The notes beneath the pieces were generated by a model. It had not been told where the DNA came from and searched no databases. It was given only the letters and a program-made list of their open reading frames with translations. The translations under genes were made by a program, and so were the position numbers. Below, piece by piece: positions 10,108 to 23,659 of a DNA stretch of 64,000 nucleotides (its first letter is position 1; each line of letters starts with the position of its first letter). The stretch spans positions 6,604,501-6,668,500 of the forward strand of contig NZ_CP108462.1 of the NCBI RefSeq assembly GCF_036226365.1. Reading direction: 5' to 3'. Source of the DNA: Streptomyces sp. NBC_01262. GTDB lineage: Bacteria; Actinomycetota; Actinomycetes; Streptomycetales; Streptomycetaceae.

Positions 10108-10545
10108 GTGACCGCCACGGACCGCTCCATCGAGCTCATCAAGGCCGCCGCCCAGGCAGCCGCCGACAAGCTCGCGCACGACATCATCGCCTACGACGTC
10201 AGCGACGTCCTCTCCATCACCGACGCGTTCCTGGTCGCCTCGGCGCCCAACGACCGCCAGGTGAAGGCCATCGTCGACGAGGTCGAGGAGCGGCTGCTCA
10301 AGGAGCTGGGCACCAAGCCGGTCCGCCGCGAGGGCGACCGTGACAGCCGCTGGGTGCTGCTGGACTACATCGACATCGTCGTGCACGTCCAGCACTCCGA
10401 GGAGCGGGTCTTCTACGCGCTGGAGCGCCTGTGGAAGGACTGCCCCGAGATCGAGCTGCCCAAGGACGCGGTGGACACCCGTGGCAAGGGCGAGGAGCAC
10501 GCGCGGTCCCTCGCGACCGCCGACGAGGACGGAGACCTGCGCTGA
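10108..10545 (+). CDS. rsfS: Ribosomal silencing factor RsfS
   Basis: 145 residues, GTG start. RsfS binds ribosomal protein uL14 on the 50S subunit and blocks subunit joining in starvation. Family marks are KLAHDIIAYDVSDVLSITDAFLVASAPNDRQVKAIVD (about 23-58) and WVLLDYIDIVVHVQHSEERVFYALERLWKDCPEI (about 89-122). The C-terminal ~25 residues are an acidic or variable extension. It directly follows nadD and the LytR_C gene, and its stop codon overlaps the apparent start of the next gene. Confidence 0.93.
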   Translation: MTATDRSIELIKAAAQAAADKLAHDIIAYDVSDVLSITDAFLVASAPNDRQVKAIVDEVEERLLKELGTKPVRREGDRDSRWVLLDYIDIVVHVQHSEERVFYALERLWKDCPEIELPKDAVDTRGKGEEHARSLATADEDGDLR

Positions 10546-11195
10546 GCACCGCAATCCGCGGCCGTGGCCGCCGGCTGGTGCTGTGGCGGCACGGCCAGAC
10601 CGCGTGGAACCTCGAAGGCCGCTTCCAGGGCACCACGGACATCGCGCTGACCGAGGTCGGCATCGGCCAGGCCAAGCGGGCCGCCCGGCTGCTCGCCGCG
10701 CTCAAGCCGGACGCCGTCATCGCCTCCGACCTGCAGCGCGCCGCCGACACCGCCGCCGAGCTGGCCGCCCTCACCGGGCTGGACGTCTCGCACCACGAAG
10801 GCCTTCGCGAGACCTACGCGGGCGTCTGGCAGGGGCTGACCCACGACGAGATCAGTTCCCGCTTCGGCGAGGAGTACGCCGCCTGGAAGCGCGGCGAGCC
10901 CGTCCGGCGCGGCGGCGGCGAGCTGGAGACCGAGGTGGCCGACCGGGCCGCCCCGGTCATCCTGGACGCCGCCGACAAGCTGCCCGACGGCGGCACCCTG
11001 GTCGCGGTCAGCCACGGCGGCGCCATCCGCACCGCCATCGGGCGGCTGATCGGCCTGGAGCCGCACACCTGGGAGTCCCTCGGCGGCCTGTCCAACTGCT
11101 GCTGGTCGGTGCTCGGCGAGGGCGCCCGCGGCTGGCGGCTGCAGGAGCACAACGCGGGCTCGCTGCCCGAGCCGGTGCTCGGCGACGACGACTGA
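10542..11195 (+). CDS. Histidine phosphatase family protein
   Basis: 217 residues if started at the CTG at 10542, which overlaps the rsfS stop (CTGA) and has GGACGGAGAC upstream. The first beta strand with the catalytic motif, RRLVLWRHGQTAWN, follows at once; the only other in-frame start is a GTG at 10578 that would truncate that strand. Other family marks are GRFQGTTDIALTEVGIGQA, ASDLQRAADTAAEL, the acid E in HEGLRETYAGVWQGLT, and the second histidine in LVAVSHGGAIRT. Members dephosphorylate small molecules (phosphoglycerate-like, alpha-ribazole phosphate and others); the substrate cannot be told. Translation is probably coupled to rsfS. Confidence 0.85.
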   Translation: MSTAIRGRGRRLVLWRHGQTAWNLEGRFQGTTDIALTEVGIGQAKRAARLLAALKPDAVIASDLQRAADTAAELAALTGLDVSHHEGLRETYAGVWQGLTHDEISSRFGEEYAAWKRGEPVRRGGGELETEVADRAAPVILDAADKLPDGGTLVAVSHGGAIRTAIGRLIGLEPHTWESLGGLSNCCWSVLGEGARGWRLQEHNAGSLPEPVLGDDD

Positions 11196-11290
11196 GCGGC
11201 GACTGTGCGATGTCCGGGCCCGATTTCTGGAATCGAGCCCTGACCGGCTAAGCTTCTACTCGTTCGCAGGGCGGAACGCCCGAGAACAGC

Positions 11291-11363
<73 letters not shown>

Positions 11364-11392
11364 CAATCCGCAGTCCATGTCCCGGGTCCTCG

Positions 11393-12295
11393 TCAGAGGG
11401 CTCGGGACATCTGCGTTCCGGAGACGATCTGCGAGAGCGGCCGGGCGTGCACCGAGCAGCCGATCAACGGGTCCTCCAGGCTGCGCAGTTGCTCGATCCG
11501 GGCCCTGCTCTCCTCGTCATCGGGCGTATAGACGACGACGCGGTGCTCGGGCATGCCGTCGATCGCCAGCGAGACGGTCGACATCTTGATGCTGCCGACC
11601 GACGCGTGCTGGATGTGCTTGATCCGCTGCCCCGGCGGGGCCACATCCCCGCTCGCCCACATCTGGGCGAACTCGGCGCTCGTCCGGATCATCCGCTCGA
11701 TGAACGACTCCCAGGCCGGCTCTCCCACATGCCGCCCGTAGGCCGTGCGCATCTGCGCGACCATGCGCGGCAGTTCATCGTCACGGTTGACGAACGCCGA
11801 GCAGCAGGACGGCCCCGAGAACAGCCGCAGCAGTACGTTGCGGTCGCTGCGCCCGACGAACCGCACACCCGGGAACAGGTCCCGGTACGCGGCGTTGGAC
11901 GCCAGCACGTCGTAACGCGCGTTGTAGACCACCGCGCACAACGGGTCGAGGGCGTCGATGATGCCCTGCACCTCGCCGCCCACGACATCGGCGTCCGGGA
12001 TGTCGTCCCGGACGAACGGCACGCCCGCCAGCCGGTAGAGGTGCTGCCGCTCGGTCACGTCCAGCCGCAGGGTGCGCGCGATCGCGTCCAGCACCTGCAC
12101 GCTCGCGTTGATCGGGCGGCCCTGCTCCAGCCACGTGTACCAGGTGACCCCGACCCCGGACAGCTGGGCGACCTCCTCGCGCCGCAGACCCGGCGTACGC
12201 CGCCGCAGGCCCGGCGGCATGCCGACGTCCTCGGGGGTGATCCTGGCGCGGCGGCTGCGCAGGAAGGCGGCGAGTTCGTTCCGGCGCTCGGGCAT
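11393..12295 (-). CDS. XRE-family regulator with MmyB-like ligand-binding domain
   Basis: 300 residues. The N-terminal helix-turn-helix (about 5-75) contains RRRTPGLRREEVAQLSGVG, the common streptomycete form of this fold, then YTWLEQGR. The rest is an MmyB-like PAS-type sensor domain (VVYNARYDVLASNAAYRDLFPG ... RDDELPRMVAQMR ... WASGDVAPPGQRIKHIQH ... MSTVSLAIDGMPEHRVVVYTPDD). Such regulators usually control an adjacent divergent gene, here the MFS exporter whose start is 96 nt away. Ligands for the family may be fatty acid-like, but none is shown here. ATG start fits the family. Confidence 0.88.
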   Translation of the reverse strand: MPERRNELAAFLRSRRARITPEDVGMPPGLRRRTPGLRREEVAQLSGVGVTWYTWLEQGRPINASVQVLDAIARTLRLDVTERQHLYRLAGVPFVRDDIPDADVVGGEVQGIIDALDPLCAVVYNARYDVLASNAAYRDLFPGVRFVGRSDRNVLLRLFSGPSCCSAFVNRDDELPRMVAQMRTAYGRHVGEPAWESFIERMIRTSAEFAQMWASGDVAPPGQRIKHIQHASVGSIKMSTVSLAIDGMPEHRVVVYTPDDEESRARIEQLRSLEDPLIGCSVHARPLSQIVSGTQMSRAL

Positions 12296-15345: not shown

Positions 15346-15418
<73 letters not shown>

Positions 15419-15500
15419 CTTCATCTCACGGAACACCTTCGCAGAACACCCAGGGTCTGGACGCCGATTACGGCCTCCGGGCCCTTTCGCTTTGCCCCGG

Positions 15501-15541: not shown

Positions 15542-17113
15542 TCAGCGCCGCCCGGCGTCCTCGACGCGCAGCGCGAGCGCCGGGCAGCGGCGGACCGCGC
15601 GCTGCGCCTGCCCGGTGAGGTGCGCGGGGACGCGGGTGCCGGCGATGTCGGGGTAGCCGTTGGCGTCGAGGCGGACGATCTCGGGGAGGATGCCGGCGCA
15701 GAGGCCGTGGCCCTTGCACAGCGTCCAGTCGACCACGAGCTTCTGGTTGGAGGTGCCGGCGCTGCCGCCCTTGCCGGCGATGGGCTCGGAGCCCAGGAGC
15801 GGCATGACGCCCTTGACCGGGCGTCCGCAGCCGCCGCCGAGGACATGGGCGGCGAGGTCGTCGGTGAAGGCGCTGATGGAGGAGAGCACAAAGCGCATCG
15901 AGCCGTCGGGGTGCTTGCAGACGCCGCGTCCCTTGACGCCCATGGCGACCTTGCGAAGCTGTTCCAGGGCGGCCTGGCCGCCGCCGTTGAGCACGTCGCC
16001 GAGGAGGGCGGCCATCGCGGGCAGTCCGAGCTTGCAGGGCCCGCACTGGCCGGCGGTCTCGCCCGCCAGCCACTGGGCTATCTTCAGGGACTCGCCGAGC
16101 GGGCACAGGCCCGGGTCGAGGGGGAGCAGCGCGCCGGCGCCGAGGGTGGCCTTGTGGGCCTCCAGGCTTTCGCGGGCGATGGTGACCATGGAGGCGACCG
16201 AGGGGTCGATCCAGCCGCCGTGGTAGCCGCCGACCAGGACGCCCTGGCCGACCGAACCGCCGGCCATCTGCAGGATGTACGACATCGGGACGCCGGTCGG
16301 GGTCTCGATGACCAGCTGCTGCGGGACCGAGCCCGAGACGGTCAGCATGGCGGTGCCGGGCTCGCCGGCCACGCCGGTGGAGCCGTAGCGGATGGCGCCG
16401 AGCCGGGCGCCGATGGCCAGCTGGGTGAAGGTCTCGGTGTTGGAGAACAGGGTGGGCGCGCCGTCGACGCCTGCCTCGCTGGAGCTGACCTTGCGGCCGG
16501 GCGGCAGCGGAGCGCCGCCGTTGGCGGCCGAGATGATCGACGAGGACTCGCCGGAGACGAAGCGCTCCGGCATCCGTACGATCCGGGCCCGCAGGGCCTT
16601 GCCGCGCCGGTCGGCGAGGCCGCGCTCGGCCATGGCGTCGCGGACCGAGGCCTCGTTGGTGTCGCGGGTGACGGCGATGATGAGCTGGGAGGCGCCCATG
16701 ATCTCGGCTGCCAGCAGGGCGCCGTCGAGCATGAGGTGCGGGGCGCGCCGCAGGATCGTCGCGTCCTTGCGGCAGGCGGGCTCGCCCTCGGAGCCGTTGA
16801 CGACGACGACCGGGCGGATGCCGCGCTTCTTCACGTTCTCGCCGACCGCGCGCAGCTTCTTGTGGAAGGGGAAGCCGGCGCCGCCCTTGCCGCGCAGGAC
16901 CATCAGCTCGGCGAGGTCGATCAGTTCGCTCTCGGTCATCCCCGACGGCATGGAGCCGTGCACGGACAGGTGGGTGACCCGGTCCAGCCGCTCCACCTCG
17001 TCGAACCCGGCGGTGATCCGGGGCAGTCCTACCGCGCGCACCTCGGGCAGCACGTCTCCGCCGCCGGTCCGGGCACCGCGAAGGGCCGGGAGGTTGTCGG
17101 GGCGCGGGCTCAT
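15542..17113 (-). CDS. NuoF-like NADH-binding flavoprotein fused to a ferredoxin
   Basis: 523 residues, not part of a nuo operon. The NADH/FMN fold is shown by LRGKGGAGFPFHKKL (73-87) and VNGSEGEPACRKD (105-117), with SLBB-like FGARP-type sequence replaced by SYILQMAGGS. The iron-sulfur region is unusual: where NuoF has SCGxCxPCR this protein has ETAGQCGPCK (352-361), so the first cysteine is Ala354; C357, C360 and C399 remain. A C-terminal domain (about 458-515) is a small ferredoxin with CKGHGLC (C466, C472) and C510, the pattern of single-cluster [3Fe-4S]/[4Fe-4S] ferredoxins. Its ATG overlaps the stop of the upstream membrane cytochrome gene (ATGA), so the two are translationally coupled and likely pass electrons between NAD(P)H and membrane heme. 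Confidence 0.85.
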   Translation of the reverse strand: MSPRPDNLPALRGARTGGGDVLPEVRAVGLPRITAGFDEVERLDRVTHLSVHGSMPSGMTESELIDLAELMVLRGKGGAGFPFHKKLRAVGENVKKRGIRPVVVVNGSEGEPACRKDATILRRAPHLMLDGALLAAEIMGASQLIIAVTRDTNEASVRDAMAERGLADRRGKALRARIVRMPERFVSGESSSIISAANGGAPLPPGRKVSSSEAGVDGAPTLFSNTETFTQLAIGARLGAIRYGSTGVAGEPGTAMLTVSGSVPQQLVIETPTGVPMSYILQMAGGSVGQGVLVGGYHGGWIDPSVASMVTIARESLEAHKATLGAGALLPLDPGLCPLGESLKIAQWLAGETAGQCGPCKLGLPAMAALLGDVLNGGGQAALEQLRKVAMGVKGRGVCKHPDGSMRFVLSSISAFTDDLAAHVLGGGCGRPVKGVMPLLGSEPIAGKGGSAGTSNQKLVVDWTLCKGHGLCAGILPEIVRLDANGYPDIAGTRVPAHLTGQAQRAVRRCPALALRVEDAGRR

Positions 17114-18174
17114 CGCTGTCCTCCGTTGTAGTACGGGCCCTGGGCCGGCTGCTGCCAGTTGACCGGCTGAAGGCGGTCTGCGCTGACGTCGGCCGGCTCG
17201 GCCGGGGGCATCGGGGGAACCTCGGTGCCGTAGGCGGGCGTCTCGTAGTAGGGCGTCTGGTAGCCGGTGTCCTGGTAGCCGTTGTTCTGGTATCCGGGGT
17301 TCGGATAGCCGCCCTGGTCGGGTACCGGCGGCAGTTGGGCGGTGGCTTCGGCGGCGGCCAGAGGCTGAGCATAGACCGGCGGAAGCTGGGCAAGTGAATC
17401 CGGGGGCGGCGCGACCGGTGGGAAGTTGGGCAGCGGAGGCAGGGATTCGGTGTACGCCATCGGGATGCCGTCGGCCCGCTCGTTGGGGACGGACCCGGCG
17501 CGACGCCGGCCGGTGCCCGTGCTGCCGCGTGGGGCCGAGACGCCCGTCGCCGAGGGCCGCAACGGGAAAAGGGCCTCGCCGCGCGTGGCGCGCATGCGGA
17601 CGACCAGGGCGATGGCCACGCCGATCACGGCGAGGCAGTACATCACGATGAACTGGGTCTTCGCCGAACGGCCCGCGTTCAGCCCGTGCACCAGGGCCGT
17701 GCACCAGGAGACGTACGAGGTGCAGTGCAGGATCCGCCAGCGCACCGGGTGGCGGCGCTCGGCGAAGGCGCTGCGCATCGCGCCGGTGACGGCGGTGAGG
17801 ATCATGGTGTACGCGGCGAGGCTGCCGAGGCCGACCAGAAAGGCCTGGCCGGTGAAGCCGATCGGGCTGAACACCTGGAACATCGTGGCGTGGCCTTCGG
17901 CCACCTTGACCGATATGTGCACGATCAGGAAGCACACCGCGGCGACCCCCAGCGCCCGGTGAATGCCCTGCGTCATGAGCCGCTGGCGCGGGCCGAGGAA
18001 GAACTCGTCGGTGGAGACGAGCCCCCAGATGACGGCCGCGCTGAGCGATACCAGGGAGAGCACGCCGACGCCGAAGTCGAGGAAGGCGAGCAGTGGGCCA
18101 CTGGCCGTGGCACCCACGGCGACCAGGGCGACGCCGATGCCGCCGGTCATGGCGACACGGAGGAAACGGGACAT
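17110..18174 (-). CDS. Ferric reductase-like membrane cytochrome b with Tyr/Pro/Gln-rich tail
   Basis: 354 residues from the ATG at 18172-18174 (AGAGG upstream); an in-frame extension up to 18288 looks unlike protein. Five or six hydrophobic helices occupy about 8-193. Four histidines are placed as in ferric-reductase-type diheme proteins: H72 and H86 on one helix, H150 and H163 on another, 12-13 residues between each pair. The C-terminal ~150 residues are cytoplasmic or exposed low-complexity sequence rich in Pro, Tyr, Gln and Gly (NPGYQNNGYQDTGYQTPYY). The coupled downstream gene encodes an NADH-binding iron-sulfur flavoprotein, so transmembrane electron transfer is the likely job. The natural acceptor (iron, quinone or other) is unknown. 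Confidence 0.8.
   Translation of the reverse strand: MSRFLRVAMTGGIGVALVAVGATASGPLLAFLDFGVGVLSLVSLSAAVIWGLVSTDEFFLGPRQRLMTQGIHRALGVAAVCFLIVHISVKVAEGHATMFQVFSPIGFTGQAFLVGLGSLAAYTMILTAVTGAMRSAFAERRHPVRWRILHCTSYVSWCTALVHGLNAGRSAKTQFIVMYCLAVIGVAIALVVRMRATRGEALFPLRPSATGVSAPRGSTGTGRRRAGSVPNERADGIPMAYTESLPPLPNFPPVAPPPDSLAQLPPVYAQPLAAAEATAQLPPVPDQGGYPNPGYQNNGYQDTGYQTPYYETPAYGTEVPPMPPAEPADVSADRLQPVNWQQPAQGPYYNGGQR

Positions 18175-20803: not shown

Positions 20804-23659
<2,856 letters not shown>

Follow-up and report, generated by a model that had tools for sequence, protein, structure and literature searches.

Ferric-reductase-type cytochromes and NuoF-like flavoproteins have been described together among the MsrQ-like flavinylation systems, in which 31 clusters with a NuoF-like protein were reported and NAD(P)H (the reduced nicotinamide adenine dinucleotides) was proposed as the electron donor (Meheust et al., 2021, PMC8238504). 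According to the same paper, apbE is found without genes for flavin mononucleotide (FMN)-binding proteins in 17% of genomes, and DUF2271 and DUF3570 proteins explain some of these cases. ApbE joins FMN to the last residue of the sequence D-x-x-[S/T]-G-A-[S/T]; exchange of the Asp has a minor effect, and a terminal position suits such tags best (PMC12052999). Ferredoxins with the pattern CxxHxxC(X)nCP include members that were isolated as [3Fe-4S] proteins, and one of this class from M. tuberculosis has a potential of -31 mV (PMC6237146). Here we describe a gene pair in a 64,000-nucleotide stretch of Streptomyces sp. NBC_01262 (contig NZ_CP108462.1, positions 6,604,501 to 6,668,500; this whole stretch is called the window). 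The pair encodes a NuoF-like flavoprotein with a fused ferredoxin (P0001) and a membrane protein (P0002). On balance we consider it probable that the two form a transmembrane reductase that moves electrons from NAD(P)H to an extracytoplasmic acceptor, by way of a cluster site that has three cysteines throughout the sampled family.

Results

The gene pair and its conservation

The host genome is a single contig of 9.74 Mb. The genes and sites of the pair are located in the window as follows.

15542..17113, minus strand: P0001, NuoF-like flavoprotein with a C-terminal single-cluster ferredoxin (523 residues; Complex1_51K, NADH_4Fe-4S and Fer4_15)
17110..18174, minus strand: P0002, membrane protein with H72, H86, H150 and H163 (354 residues)
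17110..17113, minus strand: ATGA stop/start overlap of the P0002 and P0001 genes (4 nucleotides)
16034..16060, minus strand: N3-like motif ETAGQCGPC of P0001, residues 352-360 (Ala354 codon at 16052-16054)
15917..15919, minus strand: C399 of P0001, the fourth cysteine position of the N3-like motif (RGxCxHPDG in the family; from the residue alignment)
15563..15736, minus strand: ferredoxin domain of P0001, residues 460-517, CKGHGLC...CP (CxxHxxC-type; Fer4_15 and sequence matches)
17569..18174, minus strand: six-helix transmembrane domain of P0002, residues 1-202, ferric-reductase/cytochrome-b561-like (structure model and fold matches)
17113..17559, minus strand: disordered, probably cytosolic Pro/Tyr/Gln-rich tail of P0002, residues 206-354 (model)

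Codon usage marks both genes as coding (scores of 309 for P0001 and 132 for P0002). A sequence-only reading of this DNA had noted the ATGA overlap between them, and this was borne out. The NuoF gene was called at 78 named Streptomyces loci, of which 62 have a called upstream gene no more than 80 nucleotides away; the 4-nucleotide overlap is retained at 53 of these 62.

Homologues were grouped by profile score and genomic context into clade A (fused ferredoxin), clade B (separate ferredoxin) and clade C (L207, L215, L216 and L221). The limit of clade A was a hidden Markov model score of 600, set after the scores had been viewed. Removal of duplicate loci reduced 201 NuoF-like matches to 171; second copies at G004:C193 and G292:C26 lie outside the counted loci. 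The named loci are the best 80 of 576 and all closely related, which biases the counts for clade A toward Streptomyces. A full-length close relative was found in 18 of the 27 genomes listed for a genus that holds named Streptomyces (g17) and in 6 of the 35 of the window's own genus.

The membrane partner lies upstream of the NuoF-like gene in 111 of the 113 clade A loci that have 1500 nucleotides of upstream sequence, and the two loci without it (L030 and L142) are both on draft contigs. This rules out the idea that the two genes are not conserved as a pair. The sequence-only reading had named such a lack of co-conservation, along with orthologues carrying an intact cysteine motif, as grounds for giving it up; both were looked for and neither was found.

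The NuoF-like domain and its three-cysteine site

Three Pfam domains match P0001 above their cut-offs, namely Complex1_51K (E 4.1e-28), NADH_4Fe-4S and Fer4_15 (E 8.3e-13); a match to SLBB is weak and below its cut-off. Solved relatives match P0001 at E 1e-33, and its score against the NuoF equivalog model TIGR01959 is 145.7 bits, under the cut-off of 558.65. The Gly, Lys, Asn and Glu residues conserved in FMN-binding domains are present, and at the FMN/nucleotide site G75, G77, G78, F81, K86, N106, E109, E111, N225, E227 and T228 are invariant in all 118 clade A proteins. The residue tallies of this section exclude L222 and the short fragment L030.

The residues read as key to P0001 are A354, C357, C360, C399, C466, C472 and C510. 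With A354, the protein lacks the four-cysteine N3 motif of NuoF, and the claim of the sequence-only reading that Ala replaces the first cysteine was confirmed by the orthologues. Across clades A to C (n = 164) this position is Ala in 160 proteins, Ser in 4 and Cys in 0; by clade, Ala occurs in 114/118 proteins of clade A (Ser in the other 4/118), 42/42 of clade B and 4/4 of clade C. As a comparison, Cys is found in 5/5 members of an intact group that includes the host's NuoF and a formate-dehydrogenase-type NuoF. Since Ala or Ser is fixed in 164/164 homologues, a mutation of the motif in one strain is ruled out. To call the motif "broken", as that reading did, is misleading, because all sampled members of the family have settled on three cysteines. 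By the alignment, absence of the first cysteine is an old trait of the family and no defect. On the tree described below, the Cys-type rows (11, of which 8 are distinct) cluster as one group with a Shimodaira-Hasegawa-like approximate likelihood ratio test (SH-aLRT) value of 100, so that one change at the base is the simplest account.

The other three cysteines have been kept: C357 and C360 are invariant in 169/169 proteins and C399 in 164/164 of clades A to C. This conservation indicates that the N3-like site is maintained, and from these residues it most likely holds a [3Fe-4S] cluster or a cluster with a non-cysteine ligand. A candidate for the latter is H401, which is His in 118/118 clade A and 39/42 clade B proteins. 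It is Thr or Leu in 4/4 of clade C, whose proteins without H401 are also without the first N3 cysteine, and it is in a stretch (residues 395-402) where the P0001 model is unreliable. H401 as a substitute fourth ligand and a [3Fe-4S] site are equally plausible.

Clade A also differs at the GEE motif, where the second Glu has become Ala in 95, Ser in 12 and Gly in 11 of 118 proteins; it is kept as Glu in 28/42 clade B and 4/4 clade C proteins. We take this residue to be at the position of E183 of E. coli NuoF, exchange of which is said to open the nucleotide site to NADPH. By analogy, the lineage of the window may prefer NADPH.

The fused ferredoxin domain

The end of P0001 was predicted from its sequence to be a single-cluster ferredoxin with C466, C472 and C510, and both the residues and the Fer4_15 match agree with this. 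The domain has the CxxHxxC motif and belongs to that ferredoxin family by sequence, matching two ferredoxins of solved structure (8amp and 4id8) and, in the CYP51 chain 6mcw, the C-terminal part. It probably carries a [3Fe-4S] cluster.

Because this ferredoxin is of the type that partners cytochromes P450, P0001 might feed P450s or other soluble enzymes through it, with the membrane protein serving only as an anchor. One paralogous cluster of the host does have a P450 gene about 5.5 kb away (L061:1991-3211), with other genes between. The Pfam scan of seven window neighbours showed no P450, however, and a role as anchor is hard to square with a membrane protein that keeps its heme ligands and steadily accompanies P0001. 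We regard this explanation as very improbable.

The membrane partner

Equivalents of H72, H86, H150 and H163 are present in 110-111 of 112 clade A and 36/36 clade B membrane proteins. At least one His is missing in the rows of L223, L056 and L092, and a full reading restores all four in L223 and L056 (L274 is a longer copy of L056). H72 and H86 are on the predicted helix 62-93, and H150 and H163 on the predicted helix 144-165. The histidines named in the sequence-only reading stand, and by these helices the likely heme pairs bridge the two, as H72-H150 and H86-H163, instead of both partners being on one helix. Judged by eye on the model, from its helices and from where the loops carry positive charge, both termini of P0002 would be cytosolic, with H72/H150 on the inner side and H86/H163 on the outer side.

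P0002 scores 18.4 bits against Ferric_reduct (PF01794), under the cut-off of 28, and a clade B paralogue scores 38.6, over it. The top Foldseek matches of the membrane model are STEAP4 and NOX5 (probability 1.00, E 0.03-0.04; none at or below 0.001). VIA-align Z values are tied among SpNOX (13.5 over 150 residues), cytochrome b561 (13.2) and STEAP4 (12.9), and a profile search of the membrane family against sequences of solved structures gave no match up to E 1. The model suggests a ferric-reductase/cytochrome-b561-like fold; P0002 would hold two b hemes.

With STEAP and NOX among the fold neighbours, the outer heme could instead act on Fe(III) or O2, making the pair an assimilatory ferric or siderophore reductase or an oxidase that forms superoxide or peroxide. 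MsrQ-like flavinylation clusters can carry VIT1 (PMC8238504), which fits a role in iron handling; against it, no iron transporter occurs among the seven window neighbours scanned. We consider this quite unlikely.

The Tyr/Gln/Pro-rich tail reported earlier is real, and most of residues 206-354 have a predicted local distance difference test (pLDDT) value below 50 and are predicted to be disordered. Beyond the matched domain the tail has a median length of 195 residues in clade A versus 15 in clade B, and the long form co-occurs with the ferredoxin fusion. Our guess is that it is a docking tether.

Ancestry and genomic settings

The tree has 105 rows of at least 300 residues, with every eighth named locus included; it was made by a quick method without bootstrap and its root is for drawing only. 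The fused clade comprises 49 rows, 48 from clade A and the long-branched L222, with an SH-aLRT of 98, and its union with two apbE-linked rows has a value of 99. Since the fused clade is nested in the wider, actinobacterial and apbE-linked clade B, apbE was probably lost on its stem. The copy in the window falls within a group of 30 rows (SH-aLRT 96).

Its genomic position is marked by leuS.

20804..23659, plus strand: leuS, a synteny marker outside the system (Pfam, codon usage)

On one side of the pair are tRNA-Ala, a GT87 glycosyltransferase, a major facilitator superfamily (MFS) transporter and a regulator; on the other are a kumamolisin-type peptidase and then leuS. The pair is outside any nuo operon, its neighbours being tRNA-Ala and the kumamolisin-type peptidase. 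Consistent with the sequence-only reading, no hydrogenase, formate dehydrogenase or nuo partner was among the seven neighbours scanned in Pfam; the host's true nuoF (4030231, G000:C1:4030231) and its formate-dehydrogenase-type NuoF (5925918) are both away from the pair. Flanks of 5.5 kb or more are available at 87 clade A loci, and leuS is no more than 8 kb away in 80 of these.

Genes for tRNA-Ala(GGC) occur twice, equally oriented (window 11291-11364 and 15346-15419), and bracket some 4 kb in which the GT87 glycosyltransferase gene is accompanied by an MFS transporter and a helix-turn-helix regulator. In a related genome (L064, G029), recombinase-like genes, identified by eye, are near the equivalent place (about 1-1700 and 16343-17374), which suggests that a mobile element inserted beside the pair in that genome.

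Clade A loci away from leuS are in other genera or are second copies, and in 17 of 19 long loci of this kind DUF4142 and DUF1996 genes are nearby. These comprise 6 of 7 in a first set (L067, L070, L071, L078, L223 and L224; exception L072) and 11 of 12 in a second (L263-L273; exception L274), six of the latter 12 loci having already shown Lipoprotein_15. A Lipoprotein_15 protein adjoins 4 of the 6 and 9 of the 11 DUF4142/DUF1996 loci, respectively. The genes of this set are divergent in L223 and L273, and their Pfam naming was confirmed at three loci. DUF4142 or DUF1996 occurred in 0 of 41 other long loci. In L072, thioredoxin-like (AhpC-TSA) and DsbD_TM genes follow the fused gene in place of DUF4142/DUF1996 (10274-11784). 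Inspection by eye also showed sigma-factor-like genes next to some of the DUF4142/DUF1996 loci. In the genome of the window these families are located away from any NuoF-like gene, with an adjacent DUF4142-DUF1996 pair at 2172533-2174273; that these genes serve the window pair in trans is a guess.

No apbE or FMN-binding gene was found in the window when compared with lists from its own genome, and none of the 118 clade A loci had apbE within 4 kb, among them 89 for which 4 kb or more of sequence was available on either side. This absence would suit a P0002 that acts as a quinone reductase, passing electrons to menaquinone from the cytosolic side with none crossing the membrane, as in an alternative NAD(P)H:quinone oxidoreductase. 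Quinone binding has been described for the distantly related MsrQ (PMC8238504). Nonetheless, the links of related lineages to apbE or to secreted DUF4142/DUF1996 proteins point outward, and four histidines set for two stacked hemes favor transfer across the membrane, so that we think a quinone reductase unlikely. The sequence-only reading had suggested an NADH:quinone or metal reductase, which these results neither establish nor refute.

The sequence-only reading had also called the route self-contained. This does not hold for the relatives, which are usually linked to envelope partners, either apbE with a small anchored protein in one branch or, within the fused clade, the secreted DUF4142/DUF1996/Lipoprotein_15 set. 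Pairs that stand alone are mainly leuS-linked copies, which probably use a small molecule as acceptor or one whose gene is at another place in the genome.

The apbE-linked relatives and their small proteins

The host carries two more clusters, with the order apbE, membrane protein, NuoF-like protein and ferredoxin, at about 1129476-1132533 (plus strand) and 4448521-4451814 (minus strand). Among 35 clade B loci with a score of at least 395 and 2.5 kb of upstream sequence, apbE was present in 27, the membrane partner in 31, both in 26 and a separate ferredoxin in 31, the last counted by a loose motif within 900 nucleotides. No open reading frame (ORF) at the loci up to L229, L160-L189 excluded, matched three own-genome seeds for an FMN_bind partner of these apbE genes.

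A small ORF precedes apbE in clade B, with one hydrophobic N-terminal segment, a stretch rich in Ser, Thr, Gly and Pro, and the end [ST]G[AGS]S or [ST]GS. Examples are the following.

L061:11857-12087, minus strand: small SGxS-ending protein before apbE (C-terminal pattern)
L060, just upstream of 5477, plus strand: small SGxS-ending protein before apbE (weak codon support)
L302:3903-4232, L304:3874-4197 and L299:6024-6335: small SGxS-ending proteins before apbE (C-terminal pattern)

Candidates were picked by their Ser/Thr/Gly/Pro-rich end and hydrophobic segment, with the last residues ignored, and were found in 29 of 31 clusters. The relaxed C-terminus occurs in 21 of these 29, versus a mean of 0.75 and a maximum of 5 in 2000 shuffles of the last 40 residues. 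It was present in 11 of 15 early loci and in 10 of 14 loci added after the pattern was first spotted. Among 1363 called genes in the loci, 16 bear an SGxS-type end. Fifteen are in clade B loci; 14 of these precede the NuoF-like gene, an apbE ORF being detected in 12 cases, and one is downstream of it (L280); the sixteenth is a Lipoprotein_15-type gene in L273. From their sequences, the small clade B proteins look like natural flavin tags.

Several results count against this. The strict end [ST]GA[ST] occurs in only 5 of 29 candidates, Gly or Ser taking the place that Ala has in ApbE targets in most fitting ends, and known ApbEs prefer Thr to the final Ser found here. The end does not fit the pattern in L210, L286, L289, L294 and L306. 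A positive codon score was obtained for only 7 of 29 candidates (6 with the motif), which leaves position and pattern as the sole evidence for many of them. The host's two ApbEs have no obvious signal sequence by eye, which counts against flavinylation outside the cell. In L211, L212 and L213, the small protein before apbE has a Cys-containing end like C-x3-PSG-x2-C instead of SGxS.

Discussion

The coupled route from NAD(P)H to membrane heme that was proposed from the sequence is supported as the likeliest reading of the pair. The NuoF-like domain would take hydride from NAD(P)H onto FMN. Single electrons would then pass from FMN to the cluster on C357, C360 and C399, which lacks the usual first cysteine, and from there to the fused CxxHxxC ferredoxin, probably a [3Fe-4S] protein. 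The ferredoxin would reduce the inner heme b of P0002 (H72-H150), this the outer heme b (H86-H163), and the outer heme an extracytoplasmic acceptor. The reading draws, from sequences and models, on the domains, the conserved ligands, the likely membrane fold, co-conservation, the gene overlap and ancestry in apbE-linked systems; the direction of electron flow, the cluster type, the heme content and the nature of the acceptor (a small molecule, or the product of a gene elsewhere) are inferred.

Several observations weigh against this reading. No acceptor gene was found among the window neighbours of the pair, and the apbE searches rested on only two own-genome seeds. The P0001 model has pLDDT values below 50 at residues 395-402, which makes the cluster geometry unreadable from it. 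Foldseek gives only weak E values for the membrane model, and Z values of about 13 can arise by chance between helical bundles. The first Glu of the GEE motif is also changed in clade A (64 of 118 proteins have Ala and 2 have Gln), so nucleotide use has possibly been lost instead of changed. Finally, the leuS-linked L075 falls, with weak support, outside the main leuS-linked tree group, showing that genomic position and lineage only partly coincide.

A wider account of the family is tentative, and as a whole we would sooner doubt than accept it. In it, the family would be actinobacterial transmembrane conduits whose ancestral form feeds the ApbE-flavinylated C-terminus of a small anchored protein; that protein would be rich in Ser, Gly and Thr and serve as a tag without an FMN-binding domain, modified at [ST]G[AGS]S-COOH. 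The window pair would be derived, its branch having fused the ferredoxin, moved toward NADPH and dropped the flavin carrier. It would now use a new envelope acceptor akin to the DUF4142/DUF1996/Lipoprotein_15 set, with the three-cysteine N3 site still functional.

These results describe a conserved membrane redox pair beside leuS in Streptomycetaceae. If our reading is true, antibiotic producers have an NAD(P)H-driven electron route to the cell exterior, and nature provides a test of what the first electron-relay cluster of complex I does when it has three cysteines. For ApbE enzymes that lack an FMN-binding partner, a matter only partly settled so far (PMC8238504), a substrate that can be tested is available in the clade B clusters. 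In the literature searched, outside which most subscription papers and all supplements lie, neither the fused pair next to leuS nor its relatives' link to DUF4142/DUF1996 was described, and the same holds for ApbE neighbours with an SGxS end.

Comparison with known systems

P0002 resembles STEAP, NADPH oxidases and cytochrome b561 in that its model has six helices with the His pairs on helices 3 and 5. It differs in having no fused FAD/NADPH domain, its donor being the NuoF-ferredoxin protein. P0001 has the FMN-binding, SLBB-like and N3-type cluster domains of NuoF/NDUFV1 and of HydB/HoxF/NfnB, whereas its family has Ala or Ser for the first N3 cysteine, a CxxHxxC ferredoxin is at its C-terminus, and no NuoE gene is seen beside its own. 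The C466-KGH-GL-C472...C510-P pattern is like that of the [3Fe-4S] ferredoxins of P450 systems (PMC6237146), but here the ferredoxin is fused to a NuoF-like domain, neither free-standing nor beside a P450. A further likeness, in gene arrangement, is to the MsrQ-like flavinylation systems, in which a ferric-reductase-type cytochrome adjoins a PF10589 NuoF-like protein, mainly in Actinobacteria (PMC8238504). The host's two paralogous clusters fit that description, apbE included. The window pair departs from it in having no apbE or FMN_bind gene nearby, a fused ferredoxin, and a membrane protein with a long tail that scores under the PF01794 cut-off. By the definition of the class the pair is not a member, and it stands next to the published MsrQ-like systems.

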